Source of the DNA: a virus
IMG/VR virus record: IMGVR_UViG_3300030090_005495
Coordinates: 1-29,997 of that record
Strand: one strand, 5' to 3'
Length of the DNA stretch: 29,997 nt
Below, piece after piece: positions 4,861 to 27,709 of the stretch (its first letter is position 1; every line of letters begins with the position of its first letter). Position numbers and translations under genes: made by a program. The notes beneath the pieces are model-generated. The model was not told the DNA's origin. It ran no database searches and saw only the letters and a program-made list of their open reading frames with translations.

Positions 4861-5133
4861 ATGGATGTGATGTTCCCCCCTGGGCAAGTTGTCGCCACCC
4901 CTGGCGCTCTCTCCTTGCTCGAACAGCATGACCTTGAAGCTGCAACCTTTCTCCTACGTCACCTAGGTGGAGACTGGGGTGATGTGTGCAAGCAAGACTC
5001 AAAGCTAAACGACGACGCCTTGAAGGACGGCACTCGGATCCTCTCTTCATACCCAATCAACAAGAAGAAGCTTTGGATAATCACAGAAGCTGACCGCTCG
5101 GTTACCACCCTTCTTCTCCCGGAGGAGTACTAA
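4861..5133 (+). CDS. Small conserved mobile-element protein, 90 aa
   Basis: I recognise a widespread small protein of phages, plasmids and integrative elements. Its pattern is FPPGQVVATPGAL near the N-terminus, then GDWGDV, LNDDALKDG, and a conserved end KLWIITEADRSVTTLLLPEEY (shortened here to its key residues WIITEADR and LLPEEY). Databases carry it as hypothetical or, misleadingly, as a restriction subunit; the biochemical role is unknown. The start at 4861 is chosen because AGGA is 7 bases upstream; ATGs at 4819 and 4855 lie before or too close to that site. It is the first gene behind the rightward promoter and its stop overlaps the next start (TAATG). Confidence 0.8.
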   Translation: MDVMFPPGQVVATPGALSLLEQHDLEAATFLLRHLGGDWGDVCKQDSKLNDDALKDGTRILSSYPINKKKLWIITEADRSVTTLLLPEEY

Positions 5134-5561
5134 TGGAAATCACGCACTACATTGAAGAGGCAGAAAGCTATGCAAGCGATGCTCAAGACCAAATCCAGTA
5201 CGTCATAGACGCTCTCTCTGAAGTTAGTGCGTTGGCAGAGGAAGTCACTGAGCAAAAGCAGATCTTAACTGACTACGCAGAGGACACTGAGACGGTTCAG
5301 GCCCTCGGGTTCGACTCAATTAGCGACATGATTAGAGCCTTCGAGGGGACCGGGGACTTCCGTGACCAGGTTGATGAGTCCCTTTCCTCTCTCGGCCTGC
5401 CCAAGACTGATGAGGGTCTAAAGCAAATGGCTAAGGCTGCATCCATTTGGTTGCAGCTAGAGCCGCACATCAAGTCTATTGCTGGGCTTCGTGATGGCTT
5501 GACCATAAGGCTAAACAAAACCGTCCCGGCATTCCAAAGCCCAGACAAGGAGGTGAACTAA
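5133..5561 (+). CDS. Acidic helical protein, 142 aa
   Basis: Unknown function. The first 60 residues are acidic with heptad-like spacing of hydrophobics (IEEAESYASDAQDQIQYVI, then LAEEVTEQKQIL), consistent with a coiled coil. The rest is also predicted helical, with KAASIWLQLEPHI near residue 105. It has GGAGGAG about 6 bases before the ATG and one-base TAATG overlaps with both neighbours, so translation is certain enough. It may be a small structural or inhibitor protein of the early programme. No cysteines, membrane segments or catalytic motifs are visible. Confidence 0.75.
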   Translation: MEITHYIEEAESYASDAQDQIQYVIDALSEVSALAEEVTEQKQILTDYAEDTETVQALGFDSISDMIRAFEGTGDFRDQVDESLSSLGLPKTDEGLKQMAKAASIWLQLEPHIKSIAGLRDGLTIRLNKTVPAFQSPDKEVN

Positions 5562-6972: not shown

Positions 6973-7214
6973 TGGAAAGAGAAGAGCAAGCAATGAACAG
7001 CCACAAGAAAGAGCTAGAAGCAATCCTGACCCTTGCAGAAGCTGCGTACGAACGACTCTCTAACGACATCTCTATGAGGATGGAGCTTGGGTTCGGTCAA
7101 AGCGATGCACCAGAGCCCGAGCGCTCAAACTTTCGAGAGCTTTACGACGACCTTTGTTATCTGCGCGGAGCGATCTGCGTCCTGGAAAGGTGCCGGAAAG
7201 GAGATGAAGGATGA
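6969..7214 (+). CDS. Helical small protein, 81 aa
   Basis: Unknown function. The N-terminal third reads as an amphipathic helix (KKELEAILTLAEAAYERL) and the C-terminus as another (LRGAICVLERCRKG). Two adjacent ATGs (6969, 6972) are possible; both follow AAGGAG. The gene overlaps its upstream neighbour by 4 bases and its own stop overlaps the DUF3846-like gene. Confidence 0.65.
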   Translation: MMEREEQAMNSHKKELEAILTLAEAAYERLSNDISMRMELGFGQSDAPEPERSNFRELYDDLCYLRGAICVLERCRKGDEG

Positions 7215-8472: not shown

Positions 8473-9606
8473 ATGCTGTGGAGTAAGAGCTTTGTTCAGG
8501 CCGATTCGGCGTGCCCTAAGCAATCAGTAAAGTTGCGTATGGGAGATAAGGGTCGAGCCTGGGATGGCTTCAAAGTCGGCTCGCATGTTCACTACGTCAT
8601 CGCTGCAACCCTGAAGAGAAAAGGGGCGAAGCTGGATGAGGTAGGAGCCTCCTTCGCTAGCAAGCTTTCTATTCAAGAGATGGTTTCGGTAGACCAGATG
8701 CTCCGTAACTTTGAGGAGATGCAGATTGGAATTCCTGAGCGCTCAGTGATCGAGCAGTCTTACTGCTCTGTTATTGAGCGAGACGGAAGCCCTGTCATGT
8801 GGGAAGAAGCCCCGGCCTGGATGGAAAGAGGAGATGAGTGGGACCCATCTCTTGCCAAGGAAACAGTGTGGAGGTTTCAGCCTGACGCTTACTTCCTCTC
8901 TGAGGATGGGACAAAAGTCTTCTGCATTGACTGGAAGACTGGCTGGGGTTCGCCCTCTGACACTGCGTTGATGTCAGACATTCAAGCCATTACTTACTGC
9001 GCTGCCCTATGCCAAATGACTGGGGCAAAGGAAGCAGAGTTCCAGTGGTGGAACCTTCGGTGGAAGAGGGGGCAATCAGTTGCTCGCTCAAGCGAAGAGT
9101 GGATTGCCCTAGCCAAGCCAATCTGGGCTGCGTGCTGGACAAAAGACAGGTTCAGGGAGAAGGAGATCGAAAAGGACGAGCGCCCTGGAGAGCACTGTGG
9201 TCGCTGCCCTTACTCCGAAGAGTGTCTCGTGGTTGCCCCTGAGCACCTAAAGAAAGACGACAGGGACCTTTACCTGTACTCGCTGAAGATTGACCAGCTA
9301 GCGAAGAAGGTACGAGGAGAGATGAAGAGCAGGCTGAAGGAGCGCACTGGTGTCTTAGACATTGGCAACGGCGTAACCCTTGGGCCTCGCATGGTGACAC
9401 ACAAGAAGTGGAAGAGAGGAGAGAAGGAGCACGGAATGAGAAAGGTGCTGGAGCTATTCCCAGATCACCTTTCACTTACAGATGTCTTCGACATCAAGGG
9501 GTCGATTGGTTCGTGGTTGAAGCAGTTGCCCGACACGCTGAGAGAGCACATTGACGAACACATTGAAGAGGGAAGCAGACAGACCCTCATTGAGAAGGAG
9601 AATTAG
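8473..9606 (+). CDS. Cas4/RecB-like PD-(D/E)XK exonuclease, 377 aa
   Basis: A RecB-type nuclease: D138 in QPDAY, D153 and K155 in CIDWKTG, and Q171...Y175 (QAITY) match motifs II, III and the Q-x3-Y motif. H40 (GSHVHY) could be the early histidine. C14 and the trio C242, C245, C251 (CGRCPYSEEC) are spaced as in the iron-sulphur cluster of Cas4 and AddB. The C-terminal 120 residues are an extra helical part. GGAGG lies 7 bases before the ATG. Next comes RecT, so the enzyme probably resects ends to give single strands for RecT to anneal, in the way of lambda Exo/Beta or RecE/RecT. Family and role are good inferences; polarity of digestion cannot be told. Confidence 0.85.
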   Translation: MLWSKSFVQADSACPKQSVKLRMGDKGRAWDGFKVGSHVHYVIAATLKRKGAKLDEVGASFASKLSIQEMVSVDQMLRNFEEMQIGIPERSVIEQSYCSVIERDGSPVMWEEAPAWMERGDEWDPSLAKETVWRFQPDAYFLSEDGTKVFCIDWKTGWGSPSDTALMSDIQAITYCAALCQMTGAKEAEFQWWNLRWKRGQSVARSSEEWIALAKPIWAACWTKDRFREKEIEKDERPGEHCGRCPYSEECLVVAPEHLKKDDRDLYLYSLKIDQLAKKVRGEMKSRLKERTGVLDIGNGVTLGPRMVTHKKWKRGEKEHGMRKVLELFPDHLSLTDVFDIKGSIGSWLKQLPDTLREHIDEHIEEGSRQTLIEKEN

Positions 9607-9607
9607 A

Positions 9608-10717
9608 ATGGGAGTTAATCAACTTCAAGCCCCAGGACACGGGGCAAGGGGACCGGGTGGCCTTAACGATATGGCCGCTAAGATTGAGCACGCGAAAGGA
9701 AAGCTCGCAAAGGTTTCGACTAGGTACCTAGGAGAAGACCGGCTTGCTGCCCTCGCCATCTCTATCTGGTCGAAGAACAAAAGGCTGCAAAGCTGTAGCC
9801 CAACAAGCTTTCTCCGAGCCCTCTACGAGGCTTGCCAGCTTGGCCTTGACCCTACTGGCGTCGGCAACCAGGGACACATCGTTGCCTATCGTGGCGAAGC
9901 AAAGTTCATCAGAGGATGGGGCGGCGTCGTCACTATGGCGGCTCGCCGGGGCATCAACATCGACACCTTTGCTGTCTATGACTCTGACGAGTTTGAGGTT
10001 GCCCGGTATGCAAACGACAAGGGCTACTTCCTTGGGTTGCACCACGTTGAAAAGCGGGAAGACCCAGAGACTCTCGGGAATGTCCGAGCCGCTTACGCTG
10101 TAGCTTCTTGCAAGGATTGGGAGCAGCCGATGATTGAGGTCGTTTGGCGGCATGACGTAGAGAAGATTCGAAAGAACTCTGCCTCACCGAATAGCCCAGC
10201 CTGGAAAGAGTGGTACTCCGAGATGGCCCGCAAAACTGCGGTCAACCGACTCGCCAAGCGACTGCCTCTCTTTGTCGAGGTGAAGGAGCTTAACGACGAA
10301 GGCAAGGTAGAGAAGCGGAGCGTTGCCATTAACTCTGTTCCATACGAAGACACTTACTACGACGGCAGCGTTGGCAATAAGCAGATCGATGCGCCCATTC
10401 ATGGCGAAACCATCGAACATCAAGCAGCCCCGAAGCCCCAAAGCAACGAGCAGCTTGCTGCAATCTCTGACGCGCTAGAGCTTAGGAACGAGTCTCCAGA
10501 TATTTATGCCCAGGTTTTTGGCCGTAAGGACATCACGAAGATGGGCCGAGACGAGTTGTTTTCCTTGATTGAAAAGGTCAAGCAACTCTCCATTGCTGCC
10601 GCCCAGCACGCTGAGCGGGAGACGGTTGAGCACAAGCAGTCCGTTGAGATTCAGTACAACGACCGATACCCAGAAGGAAACAAGAAGAACGATTACGAGG
10701 AAGAGCTAGGTTTTTAG
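9608..10717 (+). CDS. recT: RecT-family single-strand annealing protein, 369 aa
   Basis: Matches RecT: the conserved core SFLRALYEACQLGLDP (residues about 67-82), GNQGHIVAYRGEAKF (86-100), IRGWGGVVTMAARRG (101-115), and the later SPAWKEWYSEMARKTAVNR block. RecT proteins coat single-stranded DNA and anneal complementary strands during phage recombination and recombination-dependent replication. The start is the ATG at 9608, which has AAGGAG 7 bases upstream; the ATG at 9551 lies in the exonuclease gene. The C-terminal 90 residues are acidic and variable, as is usual for partner-binding tails (ending EEELGF). It is directly behind the exonuclease and shares its transcript. Confidence in family is high. 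Confidence 0.93.
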   Translation: MGVNQLQAPGHGARGPGGLNDMAAKIEHAKGKLAKVSTRYLGEDRLAALAISIWSKNKRLQSCSPTSFLRALYEACQLGLDPTGVGNQGHIVAYRGEAKFIRGWGGVVTMAARRGINIDTFAVYDSDEFEVARYANDKGYFLGLHHVEKREDPETLGNVRAAYAVASCKDWEQPMIEVVWRHDVEKIRKNSASPNSPAWKEWYSEMARKTAVNRLAKRLPLFVEVKELNDEGKVEKRSVAINSVPYEDTYYDGSVGNKQIDAPIHGETIEHQAAPKPQSNEQLAAISDALELRNESPDIYAQVFGRKDITKMGRDELFSLIEKVKQLSIAAAQHAERETVEHKQSVEIQYNDRYPEGNKKNDYEEELGF

Positions 10718-10986
10718 AGGGTGGGTTTCCTAAAGCCCTTCGTATTCGTGCCTACCCTCTAGCGGTGAGCTTCGGCTTCTGCGCATTTTCCACGAGTCAA
10801 AGGCTATGCCTTCCGGGAGTTGGGGTCGAAGTCCCAACGGTGAACGGGCTTCCTGTTTGAAGGAAGTCAAACCGGACATTTAGCAATCCCTAGCGGGTCT
10901 TTCCTCTAGAGATAGGCCAAGGGGGCAAGTGAATTAGAACACCACTTGCCTGCCTCCTAGCCGCACAGGGAGGCACAGCGGCGGCT
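10716..10986 (+). ncRNA. Candidate structured RNA with pseudoknot, about 270 nt
   Basis: The 309-base gap after recT has no convincing gene but has at least six helices in series. These are a 10-bp stem (10716-10725 with 10751-10760, one G-U), a TTCG hairpin (about 10762-10784), AAGGC-TAT-GCCTT (10800-10812), GTTGGG/CCCAAC (10819-10838), an 8-bp stem (10847-10854/10861-10868), and GGCAAGTG/CACTTGCC (10924-10950). TCCGG (10812-10816) with CCGGA (10872-10876) can close a three-way junction. TGCCTCC (10951-10957)/GGAGGCA (10969-10975) and AGCCGC (10959-10964)/GCGGCT (10981-10986) interleave as an H-type pseudoknot. It could be a noncoding RNA or a leader element of the gene at 11027. No known RNA class is recognised. 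Confidence 0.5.
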
Positions 10987-11026
10987 GTATCAGGTGCCTC
11001 AACTAACCAACAGCAAGGAATAGAAA

Positions 11027-11371
11027 ATGGCCGAGCACACATATTCAGATTATTGGAGCGCTGTAAAAGGGTTTGCCTTTGATGCAATCGAGGAGGCCCT
11101 GGACAGAGACGACGACAAAGACTTTTACGAGTTCATTGACGAGTGGCTGCACAACTTAGTCGATGGCTCTTACTGGGTTATCTACACCCACGCTGCGACA
11201 AAGGTCATGCAGTACACAGACCACGCCAATGCTTATTGGGATGTACTTGGCGAAGAGGTGAGTGCCAGCTCTTGGTCTGAGCTTGTAAGCAAGCTTGCCT
11301 ACTTTGCCCATGAGCAAGACATCAGGGACAGGATTAACGTCGAGCTTGAGAAAGAAGGGATGGTGCCGTGA
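11027..11371 (+). CDS. Conserved phage acidic protein, 114 aa
   Basis: The segment FYEFIDEWLHNLVDGSYWVIYTHAATKVMQYTDHANAYW resembles a small family of uncharacterised phage proteins with a VDGSYWVIYTH-like core (here at about 45-56). The protein is acidic and rich in aromatics. AGGA lies 7 bases before the ATG. It follows the structured gap, about 40 bases after the predicted pseudoknot, so the RNA structure may affect its expression. The stop overlaps the next start (GTGA). The function is unknown. Confidence 0.75.
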   Translation: MAEHTYSDYWSAVKGFAFDAIEEALDRDDDKDFYEFIDEWLHNLVDGSYWVIYTHAATKVMQYTDHANAYWDVLGEEVSASSWSELVSKLAYFAHEQDIRDRINVELEKEGMVP

Positions 11372-16072: not shown

Positions 16073-19000
16073 CTACTTATCATCGGGGATGTAGAAAAGA
16101 CTAGGGAGTTCGTCGCTGTCTTCCTTCTTGGGCGAGACTCTCATTGCTTCCTCACCGCCGACATAAAGCTCTTTCTTCAGTCGGTCCATCTGCACATCAA
16201 TCGGGATGCCTTGGTTGCGGTAAATCTCCTTGAGCCTTTTGAGCATCAGGTATTCGTACATCGCCAGTGCTGAATCAAAGTCCAGAGCTGTTGGCTTTAG
16301 ACCCAGGAAGTAAGCAAGGGCACGCTCCCTGTCGGTTGCAAGAGCATCGGTGTCGCCCATGTCCACTGACCTCGACATAAACGTGTCTTGGACTAGCTTC
16401 ATGTGCTCTCGCATTACCCGGAAGCCAGGGAGCTTGCTGACAAGGTAGAACTGCGCGGGCTTTTTAGACCTGTATTCGTTCCTCCACTTGCCGGTCCACT
16501 CTCCGTCTTTGTTGTAGACCTTTCGCCGGCTTGTCGGGACAGCCTTGCCCTCGTCGTCAACTTCCATTCCGATAAACCACTTGAGAAGCGGAGGAGCGTC
16601 TTTGTACGCCCGGATGTTGTTGATCTGCTCCCAGCCCTTTCCATAGTAAAGGGACTTGTTAAACGCGGCTTCTGCCATCGTCAGAGGGATTGGGTTCATT
16701 CGGGTGAGAGAACCAATCGGCATAAAGCCGTGGTCCTTTCTGGCTAGGAACTCAATCGCAGCCTGCTGCGGAATGCCGTGAATTCGGAACATTCTCCCTA
16801 GCCCGGTGCGGACAACAACCTGCCACCGCATCTCCTGGGGCATCGCCTGGATTTCCTCTTCGGTGAATTGCCCGTTGCCAACTCCATTGATGAAGCTCTT
16901 GAGGACAACAAAAGACCGTGGGTTCCTCACCATCTGGCGAAGCTGGAACCTCATGTTTCCTGCATCCCAGGTGTAGAAGAAGAAGAACCTTCGGAGGTAG
17001 TGCCGCTCAAACGGAGTGAGGTGGCCGTAGTTCCTCATGGCGTCATCAACAAGAGTCGAAGCCTCTTGTACCGTTTTGCCTTTTCTCATGAGGCCAACGC
17101 CGAGAGTGAGCCTCGCCTGTAGCTCGATGCTTGAGTTGAGGTTAGCCATCATCCTCATGTACGAGGGGAACGACATGCCGGCAATCGCCGTGGTGACAGC
17201 CGCCGTTGGCCCACCAAAGGTCGATGCAATCGCGGCAGATGTGGTTAGGCCGACAGCCCTTTCGCCCCAGTACATGATGAAGTTCTTGGGGTTCTCTTTG
17301 TCCTTGCCGATTGGGATAGCGGCGTTTTCCATGAACTCGCTGACTTCGCTTTGCCAAACCTTCCTAAAGCCAGTGGCAACTCCCTTCGGAATCGAACGAC
17401 CCCTGCGAAGCCCAGAGCTAAGGACCTCTGTCCCAAGCGCTCCAGCAGCCTGACCAAGGAAGAAGCCAGCCGCAGCCCCAGCAGGCCCAGCAGCAGCCAT
17501 ACCGGCAGCAGCGCCGAGCCCACCGCCAACACCGCCGCCAATAAGAGACTGGTACAGGGGAACGTCTGTCTCTCTAGCCGCTCCGTACATCTCTTCTGCA
17601 TAGGCAGAGCCTCGAAGGCTTTCTGTAATAGCCGTCTCTTCTTCGAGGATCCTTCGCCAGTCGGCAACGGTTTCTATCCGGCCACCAAGCCTAAGCGGCT
17701 TGTCTTTGACGAGCTGCCAGCCCTTTGAGCTGTAGTCCATCATCAAGCCCATAGCCAGCATGTGATTAACAGGGTTGAAAGACCCCAGTCCTAGCTGCTG
17801 AAGGATAGACAAGTAGTTGCCAGCGAAGTTCATGCCGATATGGGCAAGACCTACGATGGTGGCCTGACTCTTTGCCACTCCGGTAAGGCCGTCGAAAACG
17901 CCCATGAAGTAGCTGCCAGACGCCGGGTCTGGAGAGTTCATCCACCGGATGTACTCCACGGCAGCCGTTGGCAGGTAGACATCAGGAAGGTTAAAGGCCC
18001 TGACGACATTTGCATCTACGTTGACGCCTAGCTGGCGAAGCGAGCGAACGATAAGGCCAGGGTCTTCCCCACGAGCCAGCCTAGTGACGATTAGCTCCTT
18101 GAACTTTCTCAGCTCAGAAGGAAGCTCCATTCGCGCCGTTGCTGCAATCGTGTCCTCTGCCGTAAGCCGAGAGTACCCATACTCCTTAGCCTTCATCTCT
18201 GACCAGGAAGCAGGGTTTTCCGCAACAAGCCGAGCAATCTCTTTCCCTAGCGGGAAAAGGTCCTGCATATCCCGGATAAAGATGGCGTCAGCTACCGCCT
18301 TGTCGGTTTGCTGGCCGTAGCGCTTAATCAAAGTACCTAGGTCAGTCTCAAAGAAGTCGTAGATTTCGTTGAGGTCAGCCTCTTTCCGAGCCCACTTGAT
18401 TGCTTCGGACCACTCTTCTGGAGAGAAGAGCATTTCTAGGTCGTTGTTGTTTACCGCAGTCGAAAGCTCATCAAGCTGCTGGACTGAAACGAAACGCTGG
18501 AACGGGCCGTTGTCGCCCCACCCTGGGCCTCTCTTCGTGCTTGCGATGTGGTACAGAATCTCCGTAGCCAAGTCGTCCCTGGCAACTTCATTGATGTCTT
18601 CCAGGAACGAAGCCTTTGCTCGGAACTTCTCCGACCCAAGCTTTGCATCCTTTGGCATGAGGCCACGGCCTCGCAGCACGGCAACCTTTCTTCTGGTTGT
18701 GGTGCTTAGGATATGAGGGACATACGCAGCAAGGTTCACTCGCGACAAGAACTCTTCTTTGCCCCAGGGCTTCTCCAGCTTGTTTTCTCTTAGGTAAGTA
18801 ATTCGCTCTTCGAGGATTTCTCGGGCGCTGGTTCCTGCATCAAGCTCGTTTGCCTGCTTCCGAAGGTCCTGGATTTCCTTGAGGACCTTCGGGTCAACGG
18901 TCTTAACCAGCTTGCCGGCAGCCTGCATTCTCTTTAGCTGCTCACCCAGGAAGTCATCGACAAGCTCCGCTACCTGCAAAGCTTGCTCAATCTCATCCTT

Positions 19001-22000
19001 AGAGAAGGCTGCTCCTACCCTCGACCGGCCAGCTACTTTTCGGCGCTTGCCCGCCTTGAGGCCAAGGCGCAAGTCTTCGGTTCCGACAAGCCCTAGCTTT
19101 GCAGCAATTCGCTTAGCTTCTGGGCTAGCGTTCTTGCCGACCCCGTAGAGGCGCTTGTTCGGGTCCTTGAGAAGGCGCATGATCTTCTGAATCTCATCAG
19201 AGGTCATCTCCCTCAGAATGTCTGCCGCCTGAGACTTCTTAAACGTATCGACCGCCACCTGCTTTTGCAGTTCAGCGTAGTCGCCGTAAGCACGAGCTTC
19301 TTTCCTGAGAGAAATGACCTCACGCCAAACCTGACCAGGAGTTCTGAAGTCGTAGTTCAAGAGCTTTGCCGTAGCCATAAGCTCTTTAGAGAACTCTGGG
19401 TACTGCTCTAGAATTTTTGTCAGGCGGTCGGCCTCCTTGACCGGAGCAATCTTTAGCTCAAGGTCGCGCTCGCTTTGCCTTAGCCTCTTGATTTCATCTT
19501 CGATGTTTCGTCGCTCAAGAGAAGACGGCTGTAGCGGAGCAGCTTTCTTTTCAAGCGCCTGAATCTTTCGCTTAATCTTTCCAGCCTGGGCTCGCACAGA
19601 GCCCTTCTTTGGCAGCGTGGCTTTAGCCCTAGGCTCAACACCCGTCAAAGCCCTGGAGGCAACGGAGAGGGCGTCTGAGAGGGCGTCTTCGGACGCAACG
19701 CCAGTGCCTCCCCCGATGTCCATGTCCCGAAGAGCAGGAAGCTCATCGTAAGCAGCGGCGCTCCCAAACTTCTTGCCCTGCCTCCGAGCAAGAATCAGCT
19801 CTTTTCTAACGATGTCCTCAAGGTCAGAGATTGCCCCGTCAATCCACTCCAGGGTCTTAGCTGCCTTCTTTTGCTGTCGGGCCGTAATCTTCTTCTTCTT
19901 CGAAGAAATCTCGTTAGCCAACTCAAGGGTTTCTTCAGCCGCAACCTTTGCCTGGGCAAGCTCTTCAAGCTTAGCCTTGGCTTCGAGCATCCACCGCTTA
20001 ACTGCCGTGAAGTCGCGAGCTGAAATCAACTGCTTGATGCTCTTCCCGCGAACCTCTGGCTCAAGGCCAGTCCTTTCGGCAAGCTCTTCAGTTAGCTTTC
20101 TTAGCTTGAGTTCATCCCTTGCCGTTCCGGTTCTTGCCTTGTCCCACACAGAGTTAGGCAGCTCTGGGTCCATTGCCTGGATGTAACGCACATCTTCTGG
20201 GTCAACGCCCTTAGCCGAAATCTTCGGGATTACCACTCCCTGCTGGTCTGCGTTTCGGCTGTTGAAGGTGGCCGCAACTTCCTCAATCCACTGCCTCCAC
20301 TGCTCGCTTCGAGAAGCTGGCTTAAGCGCCATGAACTTCGTAAGCTCGCTTCCTCGGTAGAGCTTGAAAATCTCATTAACGAGTGAGGCAACGTCGTCCT
20401 CGCCCAACAGGGTGTTGCGAACAATGTCTCTAATCAGAAGCTTCTTGAACTGAGCAACCCCGCCTCTGCCCTTCTTGAATTCAGAGGGCGTTGGCGCTTT
20501 GAACCTGCGAAGCCTTTGCGGAGAGTGGTACCTGCCTGCGGCCTTGTTGCTTGCTTCCTGGAGAGTTTGAAGGGCAACAGACTTTGTTGTCGCGCTTTCC
20601 GACAGCGCCATCTTTACCGTCTTGGCAATCTCTTCGTTGCTGTAGCCGACGCTCTTCATCAACCGTTGGATTGAGTTGCGATAGGCAGCTCCAGAGAACA
20701 GCCTGGACACGGGGTCTGAAAGCTCATACGCCCGCTGGGCTGTCCTGACCTCAACTGAAAGAGGGCTTTCCTCCAAGGCTCTGGGGTCGAAGATGCGGTC
20801 AAGAACGCCCTTGATGTCGTCCGACACCGTGAAGGTTTCTACCCCAGCATCTCTCAGAATCTGCATCTTCTGAGCGTCAGACATTTTTTCAATCTGCTCA
20901 GTCGTGTACTTCTTTTTCTTTCCGTATCTTTTTGCAAGCGTTTTCAGATTCTTAGTTGAGTAATCAACCGGAAGAGGGGTGGTGCCATCGGTCGGAAGCA
21001 ACACTGCACCCTTAATGCTCCCACTGCGCGTCTTGTAGTAGGCGTAATACATCGTCTTAACCCAGTCCTTGAACTGGACGAAAATCTTTTTAATCCCAGC
21101 AGACCGATTAACGATGTCTGGGAATTCCCCAGTCTTCATGTACTGGACGAACGCATTTGCGAACGCCTCTTCGGCAATCGTGCTCCACCGACCGTCTTCG
21201 GCAACAGCCCTTTTGCCAAAGCTTCTCCGAGCCCATTCGTTCGCAATCTCTTGGTCGCGCTTGCCCAAGGTCGTTCGGAAAAGGTGCCCAGTCTCATGGA
21301 TGAAGGTCGAGAAGTCGCCCTTCTGCATGATGTCAATGATTCGGGCCCCATCTTTTGAGTTATGACGGAAGGTCCCCAAAACTTCGTAGCCGTCTTGCTT
21401 TGCATCAAGCGCGTACTTCGGAACGCCCTTCTCTCGAATCTTTTCCTTTTGAGCATCGCTCATCGAGACTTTGTAGAAGTCCGCTCTATATGGCCTTCCC
21501 TCTGCGGTGTCTTTTGCTTTTTTAATCAAGCGAGAGACATAACTTTCCTGGTTAGACGGGGGAATAAACGAGTCAACAACGCTCCACTCAACAGCCTCGT
21601 CACCTCTAAGCTCTGCAACCGACATCAAGCGCCGCTTATCGTCTAGGTTAAAGGGTGCCTGAACAAGCCTTAGCCTTATGCTGGCCTTATCCACTGGATA
21701 TTCGCGAGTCCCGAGATTAGAGCTGTCTAGAATCCCCAAAAGGAACGTGTCGATTTCGTCCTGATAAATACGGCCAATGCCGTAAGGAGCGTGAGAAAGT
21801 TTGTTCTCTATGGCTTTGTACCTGTTGTAGGCAGAGCGAATTTTTCGGTAGTTTTTACTAGCAAAAGCTTTCTTAAGATTTTCCCCTGCTCTTCTAAGCG
21901 GAACAAAGTCGCCAGCCAGCATTTCCCCAGAATCTCCTGGGCCTCTCTCCATAGCTTTCGCAAGACCGCTGTATCGGCCTTTATCTGTTCCTAATTGAGA

Positions 22001-25000
22001 GAGCTTATAAGTTGCCTTCAGATCCTTCGCCCCAAACTTATTTGGAAACTGCGAAGCCAGCTCTAAAAGGTCGTCATTTGTTTTTGCAGACTTTGCCTTT
22101 TCCCAGATTTCGTTGACTTCAGGAGAAGAAAAAAGCGACCTAGGCGGTTGGCCTGAGCCTCCACCGGGTCTTTGAGAATTTAAGAATTCGTTAAACTTTT
22201 TCGTTAAGCCGTAAAGGTCTTCAGGAGAATCCGAAGCAATTGGGGCTGCCACCATCGCCATCGGGTCATCTTCGTAGTCGATGAACTTGACCTTAGTGTC
22301 GGAGCCTAAAGTGCGTACCAGTTCTTTCCTAATCTTTTCATCATAAAGAACCTTCGCTGGCTTTCTGGTCATCCGGCCAGACTCAACCCTTCTTCGGCCA
22401 CCCTCCCAAAGTATTCCGTCAAAGTCGTTTTTAACTGCGTGATCAACAAGCGACCTTGTAGCTAGTTTTTGCCAGCTTTTTTTGTAAGGAACATTCGGGA
22501 CAGGAGCCTTTTCAAGGGCCGTTGGACCAAGCCTTATTGCCTTGCTTGAGGCTTCAACTATTTGCGGCCACAGGAATCGGAGGTCCTCGATGTATTCGCC
22601 TTGAATAAATGGGAATGAATCTGGCCCAGCGTTTTCCTCTACAAACCGACGCAACCTTTCTTCGGGAAAGGCAGAGTTAATCGACCTGTTTTTGCCGTTA
22701 ATAAAGTTAGAGACTTCTTCAGACAATATCCCTTCAACATCAGCAGCAACTGACGGAGCTAGCTTTGCGGTGTAAGCCGCGTCGTTAAGAGACTCAACAA
22801 CAGGAATCCTAACGCCGTCAACAGGGTCGATATAGCTGGCTTTTTGAATTACTCTGGCAGCATCGTCTGGGTCGAAAAGGAATGGAGCGCGAGCAATTTG
22901 CTCTTCGCTTCTTTGGTAACCCGCTTTCTTGGCAGTGCCGTGAGCATCGCTCTGAATTTCTAGAATTCTTAAAAGCTTCTCCCCAGTGTCTGGGTCGATA
23001 ACCGTGTCAAAGCGAACGTGAAGAAAGATGTTGGGGCTGTACTCATACTTCTTCACGATCTCTTCGCCGTAGTGGTAAAGCCCAGTAGCCCTGTCTACTG
23101 AAACTTCACCCGGCAGAAGGTCGTCAACCGAGAACGTCATCTCGGTGTATTCCTTGCCAGGAAGCCCTCTGATGTAGCCCTGAGTCCCTGGGTTTGTCTC
23201 TGGGCTAACGTAACCTGGGTCGTATTTGTTAGCGAAATGACCTGCGTCTGCGTTTCCTCTTAAGGTTTGGTCTTCGGGAAAAGAGTCAGCGATTTTTCCT
23301 AGTTCAATGTAGGCGTAATGGCTGTCGAGAAGCTCTTTGTTTGATCCAAGCAAAGGTGCTCGGTCAGCCGGAATGTAGCTTTCATAGACAGCCGGCTCTC
23401 CAGAAGCAGATTTGCCCTCAACCCAAACTCGAATTCCCTGCTCACGTTTTTCCCCAAGGCCCTTTTCTTTTGCAGAAACTAAGACGTCATAGGATTCGTC
23501 CAGCGCATCAAGGCTTTTACCGATAGCACCACGAGGGCGGTTAAAGTGCCCGGTGTCAATCACTAACTCACCAACAGGGTGGCGGCTATCAATGATAGTT
23601 ATCCTTGGGCGCATGGAACCTGCAAAGTAGTCAAACAGTGCAGTGTTTGTTAGGCCGTAGTTATCCAGGACGTTTGCAGATTCTTGAACAGTAAGCGGCT
23701 TCCCATCAATGTACACCGCTGTGAAATTCCCAAACTCATCAGGAATGTCGCCGTCTTCAAGTAGTTCTTTCCAGAAATTGCTTCTGAAAAAGTCAGTAAC
23801 GACGTCATCAACGCCAACCTCAAAAAGTTCGTCAACCTCGATAAACCCCTCGTCTATCGGATTGAATACATGTAGCTCGTCATCAAACTTTGTTACTTGA
23901 ACTTCGTTCGGGTAAACAAAACCCTCGTCAAAGCGACGAGCAGTAGCGCCCTCTGACATAAAGTAACCGGGGTCGTACTCCCTTTGGGCCTTAACGACCT
24001 TTGTCATTCTCGGCCACTCACCCTTAACGAAATCTGGGGTGGTTTCTTGAGGGGCGCGAAGACCTACAAAAATACCCCTGCGCGCTTCTTCGCTTAGAGA
24101 TGAAAGATCAACACTAACGTCGGGGGTCCTTTCGACTCGGACAGACCAGGGCCGAGTGTTTGCCTCAACAAGCTCAATCAACTCATCTTTTGTAATGCTC
24201 TGATAATCGTCTAGACCAGGGATAATTGAATCAGCGATTTCCTCCTGCTTTACTCCGAGCTTTTGAGCCTGCTTTCCACTAAGGAAATCTTTGAACTCGC
24301 CAACTGTCTTGAAGCTAGGAGCTTCTCTAAGCGCGTTTAATAGAACAGAGTAGAAACGGGTGCTGTCATTCGGGTTAAACGGGTTTAGCTGCTTCAAAGC
24401 GCCAGCTTCAGCGGGAGCGCCTGGGTCCTGAACCCTTACCTGAATGTTCATCTCGGTGAAATAAGCTGGCGCGTACTCCTTTGGCACCCCTTGATTGAAG
24501 GCCCATGCCTCAGCCGCAAGCCTGTACATCTCCTTAATCGCCTTAACCTGGGCAGGAGAAAACTTATCTGGCGACTTGAATGAGAGGCTTTCTACGGACT
24601 CATTGAACGCCCGCTGCGTTGCCTTCCACTGGCTGAGGTCGCCAGCAGGAAGCCGGCCTGCTGCCTGGGCATTTTTTACAGCCGACTCTGGGTTCTTCGT
24701 CCACTCAGCAGAAGGCCCCTGGGGGAGATAGATCTCGTCCAGGGTTTCGCCCATAGAAAGACGGACCATCTCAAGGTTCTTTAGAGCCTCATCTAGGCTT
24801 TCGCTTTGGTTCCAGACCTTGTTTTTAACCAGCTCTTGCAAGCCATCTCTGGCTTCTCGAAGCATTGCAATCCGGTCAACGATGGCCCCGGTTTGCTCGA
24901 AAGCGCCGAGCATTGCCTCTCGCCTAAACGTCTCGCCAAGAGTGTCGGCCAAGGCCGTGCGAATCATTCGGATGTTGTTGGTCGCATCAGCCAAGAGTTT

Positions 25001-27709
25001 CTTGCGAGCTTCTTTTGCCGGAAGAGGATTGCCGGCAACGTCCATGACAACAGTGTCGTCGGCCAACCCCCTGGTCGCCTCTAGCTCCCTTGAGAGAGTC
25101 ATGAGCGAATCGCCAATGTTTGCGAACTCAGCGGCAGCGTTTAGGTCGTCAAGGAGAGACTGGGGAATGTCCGAGAGGTCGCCGTCTAGAGCGCGGGAAA
25201 CAATTTGCTCAACATTAGTTAGCTTCGCAAAGCCTTCGATTGCTTCCTCGGACAAGGGCATGTGACGACCCAGCTCAGCAAGCTGCAACGCAAGCTGCTG
25301 GACTTCTTTGTCGTCTGTAATCGCATCAATCCTTCGAAGGAACTCAGCAATCCTGGCAGCGTCAACAGCCCTCTTTCGGGCGTTCTGCATATCCAGACGC
25401 TCGACCTGCTTGAATCGAGCAGGGTGCAGCACCTCGTCCTGGCTAAGCTTCCTTGCTTCAGCCTTAAGGCCAGTGACATAAGGCTGCGCCTTGTCGATGT
25501 TGAAGATGCTGGAAGCGCGCCTTCGAGCTTTGTCAGCTCGCAAGGGAATGATTTTGCCAGTCGCCCAATACCCGAATCGGGACCGAAGGGCGTCTGTTGA
25601 AGAGACAACCTTGGTGGCTTCGTAGGCAGCCTTTTTGCTTTGCTTCGGCGCTCTCGGGGGGTCGGACCACTTTACCTTGCCAACCCACTTTGGCTTCCCA
25701 GCCGCGTCTGCCCCAACCATTGCGGCGTCAAAAGAAAAGAGCTGCTTCTTTTTCTTAGACTCCTTCATCAAGTAAACCCAAAGAGCCTCGCCTTGAAGGG
25801 GGCCAGCGTTCACAGTGTTGAGCGGTATGTTGTTTGTCTTGATGTAGTTCTGGACTGCTTCGGCAACGCCGCCGGCAGAGTTGTCCATCATCTGCCTAAG
25901 CTGCACTGCCTGATCGATTCCGTAAACGCCGATGCGCCCGTTCCTGTAAGCAGTGTCAGTGGCAGCAATTACGTCTGCGGCTACCGACTCATTGGCCTGC
26001 TGCACGGCCATACTCCGCGCCTTTTCCGGCGACCAAGCGTTCTCGCCCTTCTGGAGCTTTGAGTTAATGTCCTTGAGATACTGGGCTGTCCTCTTAGCGA
26101 CCTCGCTGCCAACAGCTTGAGCGCCCTTCCTCGTCATTGTGATTCCGTACCTCATCGGAATGGCGATAGCCTTTACGGGCGCACCTGGGAAGTTAAGGGG
26201 GTCGAGGATTGCCGAGTTGACAGTGCCTACAAACTCCCTTCCTCCACGGCTCCCCTGTTCCCAGGCTCTTTCCCTCGAAGCAAGCCACTGCTCTTTCGTA
26301 GCTCCGGTCAGCCACTCAGGAAGCACAGAGCCAACCTTGTATCCAAAACCTGTCCAAAACTGAGCGGCCTGCTCGTTCCTTTCATCGAACTCCTTTTCCA
26401 AGAAGTCGATGTACTTAGCCATCTCCTCTTTGCTCTCAGAAGCTTTAAGCCGCATTGCGTGAGCTTCTTCTTCCTCTTTGCTGCCAGCGTTGAGGACGCC
26501 CCCCTTGAGAATCATGTTCCTGGGAAGATAGGTAGCAATATCAACAAGATCGCCGGCAAGCTCGCCAGCGCGCACGGGAAGCATGTCATCAAGAAAAGAC
26601 AGGCCAATCCCTGAGCCGCCTAGCCCAGGCAAGCGATTCAGAACGTACTGAGCCTTGGCGACCTCGTTGCCGACATCAGCTTCCCAGGTAGCCTTCTTCC
26701 AGTTCTCCTTAAAGCGCTCATCAAACTGCTCTTTAGAAAGGGTGTGTGGCGTGTTCTCTGGGTCTAGGATGCGGTTCTTTTTGTGCTCGTAATCAGTGAG
26801 AACGGCAGCCCTCATCCGACGAGCGCCCTTGTCGATGAACCACATGGCCCCCATCAGGCTCCACCCATAGCCACCCCCAAACTTTGTTGGGTCTTGACCA
26901 AGTGGTTGCCCAGAAAGCGTTGCGTCATAACGCGGCCTGAACTCGTCGTCTAGCAGCTCTCTGAACTCAGGGTGGTACTTGTTGGTGTAGTTCACCAGCG
27001 CAGCAATTTTCCTGCGCTTTGGCATCCCGTCCTCGTTGTAAATCTCCTGAACTTCGTCAAAGTCAGCAATAGCCTGGGGGCGCTGATCTGGCGGCAAGTG
27101 ATCTATGTGAGCCGGGTCTAGCGTGGTTTCAATCTTGTCTGGAAAAACTTCTGCAAGGTCTTCAAGCGCAAGGTCTTCTATCTTTGCGAGGCGCTTCTGG
27201 GTCTGCTGAAACTCCCAGTCTCTGGACAGCTCTTCTTGCCGCCTAGAAATGTAGTCTTCTTCGCTCTCATAGATTGAGCGTCCGGGCTCTCGGCCTGCAC
27301 CTGTAATGAACTTGGGGAACAAGCTCGGCCCTACGGCTGGCCTCGCAATCGTGTACCCGCCGAAGAACCCCTCCTTCTTTACCCCAGGCTCCTGCATGAT
27401 TTTCTCAGTAAAATCAGGAGCTTCCGCGTCTGAGGGGAAGAGCGTTTCCGCAACCTCTTCTCGCTCTTCGGCTCTTAGCTGCGCGTTCCCAGCCAGCCCA
27501 GCCTCGTACCTTGCCTTGTCAAAAAGCGAAGGCGGCTCTGCCTCAGACCTCGGGGCCATTAGCTGACCAACAAACGAAGAGGGCTCTTCGGGCGCAGGGG
27601 TGCCGGCCTCCTCTAGACCAGAAAGCGACCCGGTATCCCGAAGCTCATCAAAAAGACTTGAGTATTTCTTTTCGCCTGACTCAGGAAGAAGGGCGTTCTC
27701 TTCGGCCAT
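16073..27709 (-). CDS. Giant multidomain phage protein, probable internal/ejected virion protein, 3878 aa
   Basis: One open frame of 11.6 kb. Recognisable parts, with approximate residues: a GVK-type helical module (FKDFLSGKQAQKLGVK, about 1125-1145); a module with EIQSD (1584-1588) and PYKKSW...DGILWEGG (1741-1772), common in large phage polyvalent proteins; a zincin-like metallopeptidase site HETGH (2138-2142) with E2180/E2181 in EEAFANAF as possible third ligand; long charged helices (about 2570-2790); and, near the C-terminus, GMNFAGNYL (about 3285), a Gly/Ala-rich hydrophobic zipper (about 3386-3426) and RRFFFFYTW (about 3570), also typical of this family. Such proteins are packaged and often ejected with DNA. 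No N4-type RNA polymerase or helicase motif was found. It overlaps the upstream gene (TAATG). The metalloprotease might process the virion or act in the cell. Confidence 0.85.
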   Translation of the reverse strand: MAEENALLPESGEKKYSSLFDELRDTGSLSGLEEAGTPAPEEPSSFVGQLMAPRSEAEPPSLFDKARYEAGLAGNAQLRAEEREEVAETLFPSDAEAPDFTEKIMQEPGVKKEGFFGGYTIARPAVGPSLFPKFITGAGREPGRSIYESEEDYISRRQEELSRDWEFQQTQKRLAKIEDLALEDLAEVFPDKIETTLDPAHIDHLPPDQRPQAIADFDEVQEIYNEDGMPKRRKIAALVNYTNKYHPEFRELLDDEFRPRYDATLSGQPLGQDPTKFGGGYGWSLMGAMWFIDKGARRMRAAVLTDYEHKKNRILDPENTPHTLSKEQFDERFKENWKKATWEADVGNEVAKAQYVLNRLPGLGGSGIGLSFLDDMLPVRAGELAGDLVDIATYLPRNMILKGGVLNAGSKEEEEAHAMRLKASESKEEMAKYIDFLEKEFDERNEQAAQFWTGFGYKVGSVLPEWLTGATKEQWLASRERAWEQGSRGGREFVGTVNSAILDPLNFPGAPVKAIAIPMRYGITMTRKGAQAVGSEVAKRTAQYLKDINSKLQKGENAWSPEKARSMAVQQANESVAADVIAATDTAYRNGRIGVYGIDQAVQLRQMMDNSAGGVAEAVQNYIKTNNIPLNTVNAGPLQGEALWVYLMKESKKKKQLFSFDAAMVGADAAGKPKWVGKVKWSDPPRAPKQSKKAAYEATKVVSSTDALRSRFGYWATGKIIPLRADKARRRASSIFNIDKAQPYVTGLKAEARKLSQDEVLHPARFKQVERLDMQNARKRAVDAARIAEFLRRIDAITDDKEVQQLALQLAELGRHMPLSEEAIEGFAKLTNVEQIVSRALDGDLSDIPQSLLDDLNAAAEFANIGDSLMTLSRELEATRGLADDTVVMDVAGNPLPAKEARKKLLADATNNIRMIRTALADTLGETFRREAMLGAFEQTGAIVDRIAMLREARDGLQELVKNKVWNQSESLDEALKNLEMVRLSMGETLDEIYLPQGPSAEWTKNPESAVKNAQAAGRLPAGDLSQWKATQRAFNESVESLSFKSPDKFSPAQVKAIKEMYRLAAEAWAFNQGVPKEYAPAYFTEMNIQVRVQDPGAPAEAGALKQLNPFNPNDSTRFYSVLLNALREAPSFKTVGEFKDFLSGKQAQKLGVKQEEIADSIIPGLDDYQSITKDELIELVEANTRPWSVRVERTPDVSVDLSSLSEEARRGIFVGLRAPQETTPDFVKGEWPRMTKVVKAQREYDPGYFMSEGATARRFDEGFVYPNEVQVTKFDDELHVFNPIDEGFIEVDELFEVGVDDVVTDFFRSNFWKELLEDGDIPDEFGNFTAVYIDGKPLTVQESANVLDNYGLTNTALFDYFAGSMRPRITIIDSRHPVGELVIDTGHFNRPRGAIGKSLDALDESYDVLVSAKEKGLGEKREQGIRVWVEGKSASGEPAVYESYIPADRAPLLGSNKELLDSHYAYIELGKIADSFPEDQTLRGNADAGHFANKYDPGYVSPETNPGTQGYIRGLPGKEYTEMTFSVDDLLPGEVSVDRATGLYHYGEEIVKKYEYSPNIFLHVRFDTVIDPDTGEKLLRILEIQSDAHGTAKKAGYQRSEEQIARAPFLFDPDDAARVIQKASYIDPVDGVRIPVVESLNDAAYTAKLAPSVAADVEGILSEEVSNFINGKNRSINSAFPEERLRRFVEENAGPDSFPFIQGEYIEDLRFLWPQIVEASSKAIRLGPTALEKAPVPNVPYKKSWQKLATRSLVDHAVKNDFDGILWEGGRRRVESGRMTRKPAKVLYDEKIRKELVRTLGSDTKVKFIDYEDDPMAMVAAPIASDSPEDLYGLTKKFNEFLNSQRPGGGSGQPPRSLFSSPEVNEIWEKAKSAKTNDDLLELASQFPNKFGAKDLKATYKLSQLGTDKGRYSGLAKAMERGPGDSGEMLAGDFVPLRRAGENLKKAFASKNYRKIRSAYNRYKAIENKLSHAPYGIGRIYQDEIDTFLLGILDSSNLGTREYPVDKASIRLRLVQAPFNLDDKRRLMSVAELRGDEAVEWSVVDSFIPPSNQESYVSRLIKKAKDTAEGRPYRADFYKVSMSDAQKEKIREKGVPKYALDAKQDGYEVLGTFRHNSKDGARIIDIMQKGDFSTFIHETGHLFRTTLGKRDQEIANEWARRSFGKRAVAEDGRWSTIAEEAFANAFVQYMKTGEFPDIVNRSAGIKKIFVQFKDWVKTMYYAYYKTRSGSIKGAVLLPTDGTTPLPVDYSTKNLKTLAKRYGKKKKYTTEQIEKMSDAQKMQILRDAGVETFTVSDDIKGVLDRIFDPRALEESPLSVEVRTAQRAYELSDPVSRLFSGAAYRNSIQRLMKSVGYSNEEIAKTVKMALSESATTKSVALQTLQEASNKAAGRYHSPQRLRRFKAPTPSEFKKGRGGVAQFKKLLIRDIVRNTLLGEDDVASLVNEIFKLYRGSELTKFMALKPASRSEQWRQWIEEVAATFNSRNADQQGVVIPKISAKGVDPEDVRYIQAMDPELPNSVWDKARTGTARDELKLRKLTEELAERTGLEPEVRGKSIKQLISARDFTAVKRWMLEAKAKLEELAQAKVAAEETLELANEISSKKKKITARQQKKAAKTLEWIDGAISDLEDIVRKELILARRQGKKFGSAAAYDELPALRDMDIGGGTGVASEDALSDALSVASRALTGVEPRAKATLPKKGSVRAQAGKIKRKIQALEKKAAPLQPSSLERRNIEDEIKRLRQSERDLELKIAPVKEADRLTKILEQYPEFSKELMATAKLLNYDFRTPGQVWREVISLRKEARAYGDYAELQKQVAVDTFKKSQAADILREMTSDEIQKIMRLLKDPNKRLYGVGKNASPEAKRIAAKLGLVGTEDLRLGLKAGKRRKVAGRSRVGAAFSKDEIEQALQVAELVDDFLGEQLKRMQAAGKLVKTVDPKVLKEIQDLRKQANELDAGTSAREILEERITYLRENKLEKPWGKEEFLSRVNLAAYVPHILSTTTRRKVAVLRGRGLMPKDAKLGSEKFRAKASFLEDINEVARDDLATEILYHIASTKRGPGWGDNGPFQRFVSVQQLDELSTAVNNNDLEMLFSPEEWSEAIKWARKEADLNEIYDFFETDLGTLIKRYGQQTDKAVADAIFIRDMQDLFPLGKEIARLVAENPASWSEMKAKEYGYSRLTAEDTIAATARMELPSELRKFKELIVTRLARGEDPGLIVRSLRQLGVNVDANVVRAFNLPDVYLPTAAVEYIRWMNSPDPASGSYFMGVFDGLTGVAKSQATIVGLAHIGMNFAGNYLSILQQLGLGSFNPVNHMLAMGLMMDYSSKGWQLVKDKPLRLGGRIETVADWRRILEEETAITESLRGSAYAEEMYGAARETDVPLYQSLIGGGVGGGLGAAAGMAAAGPAGAAAGFFLGQAAGALGTEVLSSGLRRGRSIPKGVATGFRKVWQSEVSEFMENAAIPIGKDKENPKNFIMYWGERAVGLTTSAAIASTFGGPTAAVTTAIAGMSFPSYMRMMANLNSSIELQARLTLGVGLMRKGKTVQEASTLVDDAMRNYGHLTPFERHYLRRFFFFYTWDAGNMRFQLRQMVRNPRSFVVLKSFINGVGNGQFTEEEIQAMPQEMRWQVVVRTGLGRMFRIHGIPQQAAIEFLARKDHGFMPIGSLTRMNPIPLTMAEAAFNKSLYYGKGWEQINNIRAYKDAPPLLKWFIGMEVDDEGKAVPTSRRKVYNKDGEWTGKWRNEYRSKKPAQFYLVSKLPGFRVMREHMKLVQDTFMSRSVDMGDTDALATDRERALAYFLGLKPTALDFDSALAMYEYLMLKRLKEIYRNQGIPIDVQMDRLKKELYVGGEEAMRVSPKKEDSDELPSLFYIPDDK

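Follow-up and report, generated by a model that had tools for sequence, protein, structure and literature searches.

The 309-base gap (10718-11026) that separates a recT gene from the next start codon at 11027 in an IMG/VR virus record carries two structured RNA elements, designated here as A and B, whose pairing has been kept by compensatory mutations in dozens of uncultured phages. The window analyzed was the whole stretch of 29,997 bases from this record. The structures, folding strand, conservation, placement and modularity of both elements are established at the level of comparative sequence analysis, which presents them as two new RNA families of the kind considered candidate cis-regulators in phages, both absent from Rfam. 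With moderate confidence, A and B are interpreted as cis-acting intercistronic mRNA elements that would control the expression of flanking genes.

The gap is bounded by the following features:

9551..10717, plus strand: gene for a RecT-family ssDNA annealing protein (PHROG 148, E 1.1e-40; Pfam RecT, E 1.8e-30)
11015..11019, plus strand: Shine-Dalgarno-like AAGGA between an unpaired spacer, AACUAACCAAC, and the ATG at 11027
11027..11371, plus strand: downstream gene for a protein of 114 aa with no function assigned, relatives of which were found by protein search

No match to the 114-aa protein was found in Pfam or PHROG, and a relative of it is encoded upstream of element A in another phage (L059). 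The gap contained no sigma-70-like promoter site, the type of promoter that the scan covered, and a terminator search returned one terminator-like site at chance level only. Several good helices, described in the first-pass annotation of this gap, were confirmed. The folding energy, on the other hand, was unexceptional: the minimum for the whole gap (-112.6 kcal/mol) was equalled by 11 of 100 shuffles (z -1.36) in a test that is blind to pseudoknots, and the minus strand gave a similar result. As this energy was barely better than that of shuffled sequences, the question was settled through the comparison of homologues, and compensatory changes in homologous phage gaps supported the presence of structured RNA. 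An energy-only test would have discarded a genuine RNA in this case.

Structure and covariation of elements A and B

Element A has a size of approximately 165 nt and comprises five helices and, in addition, a pseudoknot that pairs 10744-10750 with 10791-10797. Its parts in the window are:

10714..10877, plus strand: whole element A (P1, pseudoknot PK, variable P2, P3, optional P4 and P5), from the covariance model and covariation
10714..10726, plus strand: 5' strand of helix P1, TTAGAGGGTGGGT (own-versus-cross duplex test, 0/20000)
10750..10762, plus strand: 3' strand of P1, GCCTACCCTCTAG
10744..10750, plus strand: 5' strand of pseudoknot helix PK, ATTCGTG, which abuts the P1 3' strand (own-versus-cross, 0/20000)
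10791..10797, plus strand: 3' strand of PK, CACGAGT
10812..10816, plus strand: 5' strand of helix P3, TCCGG (GCCGG in most relatives; a U-A pair here versus G-C elsewhere)
10872..10876, plus strand: 3' strand of P3, CCGGA
10819..10838, plus strand: optional hairpin P4, GTTGGGG/TCCCAAC, missing from about half of the relatives
10847..10868, plus strand: hairpin P5, GGCTTCC-TGTTTGAA-GGAAGTC, where three pairs differ among relatives on both strands (own-versus-cross, 0/20000)

The loop after the 5' strand of P1 has a recurrent UCC...AAGNCC pattern, and the 3' strand of PK ends about 7 nt 5' of a conserved UAUGCCU, which is followed by the variable hairpin P2, by P3 (GCCGG/CCGGC) around the optional P4, by GAACG and by P5, whose loop has the consensus UGYUU(N)GAA. 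The unpaired nucleotides of UAUGCCU, GAACG and UGYUU.GAA are highly conserved. The stop codon of recT (10715-10717) falls within P1, where UAG pairs with CUA in the window and UAA with UUA in a close relative (L002). The stretch ending GAACGGGCTTCCTGTTTGAAGGAAGTCAAACCGG is also found 3' of recT in phages with no more than 48-67% identity in RecT.

Each P1 strand pairs far better with its own partner than with that of another phage (mean -15.6 versus -6.3 kcal/mol), and the same is true of the PK strands (-7.7 versus -3.2 kcal/mol); none of 20,000 permutations was as good in either case. The PK helix is weak in three loci (L021, L030 and L075). In P3 and P5, 93.8% of cells were paired; shuffling lowered this share to 84.8%, and sliding the strands to 54% at best.

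Element B is a compact H-type pseudoknot located between A and the next start codon. It is listed below together with the pseudoknot of the first-pass annotation:

About 10913-11001, plus strand: element B, an H-type pseudoknot and the hairpin 5' of it (24 copies compared)
10913..10950, plus strand: 5' part of B, comprising the motif UAGGCC (most copies: UAGRCC) and hairpin P0, which is variable, GGCAAGTG/CACTTGCC
10960..10964, plus strand: 5' strand of stem S1, GCCGC, paired in 24/24 copies, with changes on both sides
10965-10969, plus strand: loop L1, ACAGG (NCAGG in all copies)
10970..10976, plus strand: 5' strand of stem S2, GAGGCAC, paired in 24/24 copies, with changes on both sides
10978..10982, plus strand: 3' strand of S1, GCGGC
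10983..10993, plus strand: loop L3, GGCTGTATCAG
10994..11000, plus strand: 3' strand of S2, GTGCCTC, beyond the interval first annotated
10951..10986, plus strand: pseudoknot of the first-pass annotation, a genuine complementarity that is specific to the window

The consensus of B consists of S1 (5 bp), NCAGG, S2 (7 bp), R, S1', 10-12 nt ending in GNAU(C)AG, and S2'; on its 5' side there is usually UAGRCC together with a variable hairpin. Both stems are complete in every one of the 24 copies, with several pair types at positions 1, 3 and 5 of S1 and 1, 4 and 7 of S2. Among 18 distinct sequences, 99.5% of cells were paired (88.9% when shuffled, 43% at best when slid), and two pairs had changed on both sides in each stem. 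All of 500 shuffles were surpassed in paired cells, in cells with both sides changed and in covariation score. The count of pairs with both sides changed did not exceed that of the shuffles, owing to the low variability of the columns. A mini-ORF inside the pseudoknot of the B2 copies (AUG-UCG-..-UAG) was considered and dropped, since B1 copies do not have it.

An H-type pseudoknot just 5' of the next start had been proposed from two interleaved perfect helices, one of 7 bp (TGCCTCC, 10951-10957, with GGAGGCA, 10969-10975) and one of 6 bp (AGCCGC, 10959-10964, with GCGGCT, 10981-10986). Both are present as described, with connectors of 1, 4 and 5 nt, and a pseudoknot of this type does exist at this position; however, the conserved one pairs other, overlapping strands, and among the 24 homologous copies the 7 bp helix is complete only in the window itself and the 6 bp helix in two. 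It had also been suggested that alternative pairing could provide a switch. The 7 bp helix competes with the conserved S2 in this window only, and a conserved switch based on it is not supported; switching specific to the window is possible, though it would not be a feature of the family. The interval first proposed (10716-10986) is indeed structured RNA, but it mixes the two elements and omits the 3' end of the second one (10994-11000).

Across A and B, every helix that could be tested showed covariation. With regard to the folding strand, G-U cells outnumbered A-C cells by 17 to 0 in P1 and by 16 to 0 in B. The occurrence of G-U without A-C in the helices indicates that the mRNA (coding) strand is the one that folds.

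Distribution, genomic placement and modularity

Pattern scans of viral contigs combined with inspection revealed at least 22 loci of element A. The covariance model (R1) detected A in 22 of 24 phage records of up to 73 kb, with one match each at E 5e-12 or better; two further matches were near chance level. Three loci that came from the pattern scan (L037, L038 and L042) are genuine. In all of the 21 loci surveyed, A lies on the same strand as the flanking genes, its core 63-108 nt from the upstream stop codon, and the 5' strand of P1 begins at this stop codon or at most about 20 nt from it. On the 3' side, a short A/C-rich spacer and a Shine-Dalgarno sequence precede a start codon located ~15-35 nt away when no module intervenes.

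The gene upstream of A in these 21 loci encodes RecT (6), an SSB-like protein (8), a 138-aa family (6) or the P0002 family (1). The SSB-like proteins have an acidic DDLF end, a sub-threshold match to DUF669 and a match to PHROG SSB (E 5e-4). Members of the 138-aa family are encoded directly 5' of A (L024:6953-7369, L025, L037, L038, L042 and L084); no relative was found in Pfam, PHROG or PDB, and the predicted fold, although confident (mean pLDDT 85.9), matched nothing. About a quarter of A copies come after a gene lacking functional assignment. The genes downstream of A are mostly unrelated, one of them being PAPS-reductase-like.

For element B, the first scans yielded near-identical sequences, and a looser scan added more than a dozen phages with a diverged form. 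One segment of the window has no counterpart in a near-identical phage:

10874..11001, plus strand: segment missing from L002 (IMGVR 3300030098_005157), corresponding to a module with element B (blastn)

Although its RecT is 99% and its next protein 97% identical to those of the window, L002 does not have these 128 bases, and the part of the window at 10959-11012 recurs with 94% identity in L008 and L009, where it precedes a different gene. These comparisons imply that the gap consists of two separate elements. The first-pass view of the gap as one structured RNA was thus replaced by that of two independent ones: A occurs without B in L002, and B without A in L031, L032 and L125. In addition, B is found before different genes in the related phages L030 (8259-9001) and L062 (1219-1387), and about 300 extra bases follow A in L030, differences that suggest recombination at the A and B elements. 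Judged from these comparisons, B is a module of gain and loss. It is single in the window and in most phages, while tandem arrays occur in L146 (three copies, 2110-2340), L032 (two, 492-645) and L129 (two, 5022-5163), in which the neighbouring copies have diverged with fully compensated helices.

The protein upstream of B in L125, L148, L146 and L032 has a predicted model resembling the ssDNA-binding protein PrgE (Foldseek probability 1.00, E 5e-5 for the L125 type, at a modest model confidence with mean pLDDT 62.7). UDG-polymerase A fusions are encoded downstream of B2 copies. In L125 (2323-2375) and L148, only 6-8 nt separate the end of the B2 pseudoknot from the start codon of the UDG-DNA polymerase A fusion; a U-rich tract lies in between, and no Shine-Dalgarno sequence is visible. 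Given this short spacing and the missing Shine-Dalgarno sequence, a single occlusion mechanism is insufficient for all copies.

Some additional structures were observed near these elements. Between A and B of L021 (about 7085-7170, minus strand) there is a second P1-like helix, TCTCTAGCGGGCC...GGTCCGCTAGAGA, which resembles P1 of L003. A possible H-type pseudoknot 5' of B in L031 (3430-3500) is formed by AGGUCA/UGACCU interleaved with GGUGAAC/GUUCAUC and flanked by GCCAG/CUGGC, perhaps representing a reduced element A.

Searches of Rfam, both at the gathering score and at permissive E-values, produced chance matches only (the best weak one with E 0.6 or worse), in agreement with the initial impression that the gap matches no known RNA class. 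No related element was found in records of cultured phages and plasmids. A pattern scan of prokaryotic genomes revealed no A and five matches to the B pattern, all of them without the helices, so that these genomes pointed to no host. The carrier phages are apparently mostly marine, which we take from the IMG sample numbers.

Proposed function and alternative explanations

The genes around the two elements belong to recombination and replication (RecT, Sak4, SSB-like proteins and UDG-polymerase A fusions), and most copies adjoin genes for ssDNA binding, annealing or replication; the elements are placed between a stop codon and the next start codon. Their edges at stop and start codons, the lack of a promoter, the gain and loss of B and the conserved loops together suggest a cis-acting, post-transcriptional intercistronic element. 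A and B would act within the polycistronic mRNA of a recombination/replication operon, most copies filling the junction between an ssDNA-binding or annealing gene and the next gene; A extends from the upstream stop codon to ~15-35 nt before the following start when nothing is inserted. In this mRNA, the two elements may govern the translation or decay of neighbouring cistrons by way of a partner that recognizes the conserved loops, and they probably help to set the amount of the adjoining proteins. The RNA core is conserved across upstream proteins of unrelated families, which makes the upstream protein a less likely partner than a small ligand or a host factor (ribosome, RNase or RNA-binding protein). 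Against this reading count the unrelated downstream genes, which do not sit well with the regulation of a single pathway, and those copies of A, about a quarter, that come after a gene lacking functional assignment.

A more specific role of the upstream protein would be autoregulation, in which free ssDNA-binding protein, in excess over ssDNA, binds the pseudoknot and either acts as a translational repressor of the neighbouring replication gene or accelerates decay of its own mRNA. Phages T4, T2 and RB69 have an H-type pseudoknot operator 5' of the ssb gene under control, gene 32, and in T4 it is situated 67 nt upstream of the start codon of gp32 itself (PMC3014915). A and B share with this operator the phage origin, an H-type pseudoknot before a start codon and the link to an ssDNA-binding protein gene, and the gene immediately before most copies is of the RecT, SSB-like or PrgE-like type, with polymerase, helicase or Sak4 genes after several of them. 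We nevertheless consider such an operator unlikely: unrelated upstream proteins share the same RNA core, the elements lie 3' of the ssb- or recT-type gene in every case seen rather than in the 5' leader of ssb, and the A+U-rich tract that follows the T4 operator has a short spacer as its counterpart.

Equally unlikely, in our estimation, is a metabolite or ion riboswitch, with A, B or both as aptamers before the start codon, sensing for example a replication-dependent nucleotide. The conserved unpaired loops on variable helices (NCAGG and GNAU(C)AG in B; those listed above in A), the adjoining start codons and the tandem copies of B speak in favour of it. Yet the downstream genes share no common pathway, there is no conserved expression platform (the alternative pairing first proposed being specific to the window), and none of the Rfam riboswitches matched.

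The remaining explanations are less probable still. The structures might act as ssDNA, in the form of a replication origin, primosome site or priming site, as suggested by the single copy per record adjoining ssDNA-binding or replication genes; the authors who described STAXI raised such an option for SSB-associated pseudoknots (PMC2864571). This appears quite improbable here, because the 33 G-U and 0 A-C cells of P1 and B together indicate RNA of the coding strand, the orientation always follows the genes, the edges fall at stop and start codons, and B may be in tandem or missing. The bias in G-U and A-C cells and the shared orientation make mRNA a better fit than an ssDNA origin.

An even lower probability is given to a processive antitermination RNA, with put and EAR as precedents, by which RNA polymerase would be modified for transcription of the distal operon. 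A structured cis RNA of about 165 nt, once per genome in an early-type operon, would be compatible with this role; however, it would not need the exact fit between stop and start, and B is lost, or precedes a different gene, in related phages. Least credible is that the mRNA is processed into a trans-acting or decoy RNA (an sRNA, a ToxI-like pseudoknot repeat or an anti-CRISPR RNA). Its compact H-type fold and the tandem copies in three phages would allow this for B, but most copies are single, no ToxN-like neighbour was noticed among the neighbourhoods read, and the match of a CRISPR repeat to the segment between A and B was at chance level (E 8.2). Programmed frameshifting was rejected in view of the closed upstream stop and the separate starts of downstream genes, and HDV-like, hammerhead and twister ribozymes for want of a matching core (Rfam, strand order).

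Relation to known RNA elements

The nearest described kind is STAXI (RF01728), whose pseudoknots, in many cases tandem, occur in the vicinity of genes for DNA-handling proteins, ssDNA-binding ones included (PMC2864571). A and B are likewise located near such genes. STAXI comes in two or more repeats and frequently has UUCG tetraloops, in contrast to B, which is usually found as one copy and whose pseudoknot encloses no hairpin. In 11 records, those with tandem B among them, the STAXI model gave no match over the cut-off of 40.5 bits (best match 4.8 bits, E 7). PeSL cassettes of T4-type phages are promoter-carrying mobile modules gained and lost between genes. They resemble the present elements in this gain and loss but differ in that the window gap has no sigma-70-like promoter. 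ESAS (extended start-associated sequences) of cluster K mycobacteriophages are conserved elements with inverted repeats directly 5' of the starts of unrelated genes (PMC3203893); they are simple 17-bp repeats with many copies per genome, whereas A occurs once per genome, and both elements contain pseudoknots and helices that covary. The manA and wcaG motifs are candidate structured cis-regulatory RNAs mainly from marine metagenomes and phages (PMC2864571), and they precede metabolic genes, unlike A and B, which have no Rfam match.

Two strongly covarying RNA families outside Rfam are thus present at the same type of junction in many unrelated phages, and their dozens of natural variants could be used to ask whether pseudoknots control phage replication modules more widely. 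A and B might even be the first of a new class of phage RNAs that gauge the supply of ssDNA-binding protein or a replication-linked ligand and adjust downstream polymerase, helicase or recombinase genes. This is a speculative idea with a rather small chance of being correct; if true, it would provide an RNA control point for replication that is common to unrelated uncultured phages.

In another part of the window, a minus-strand ORF of 3,878 aa (16073-27709) fills over one third of its length.
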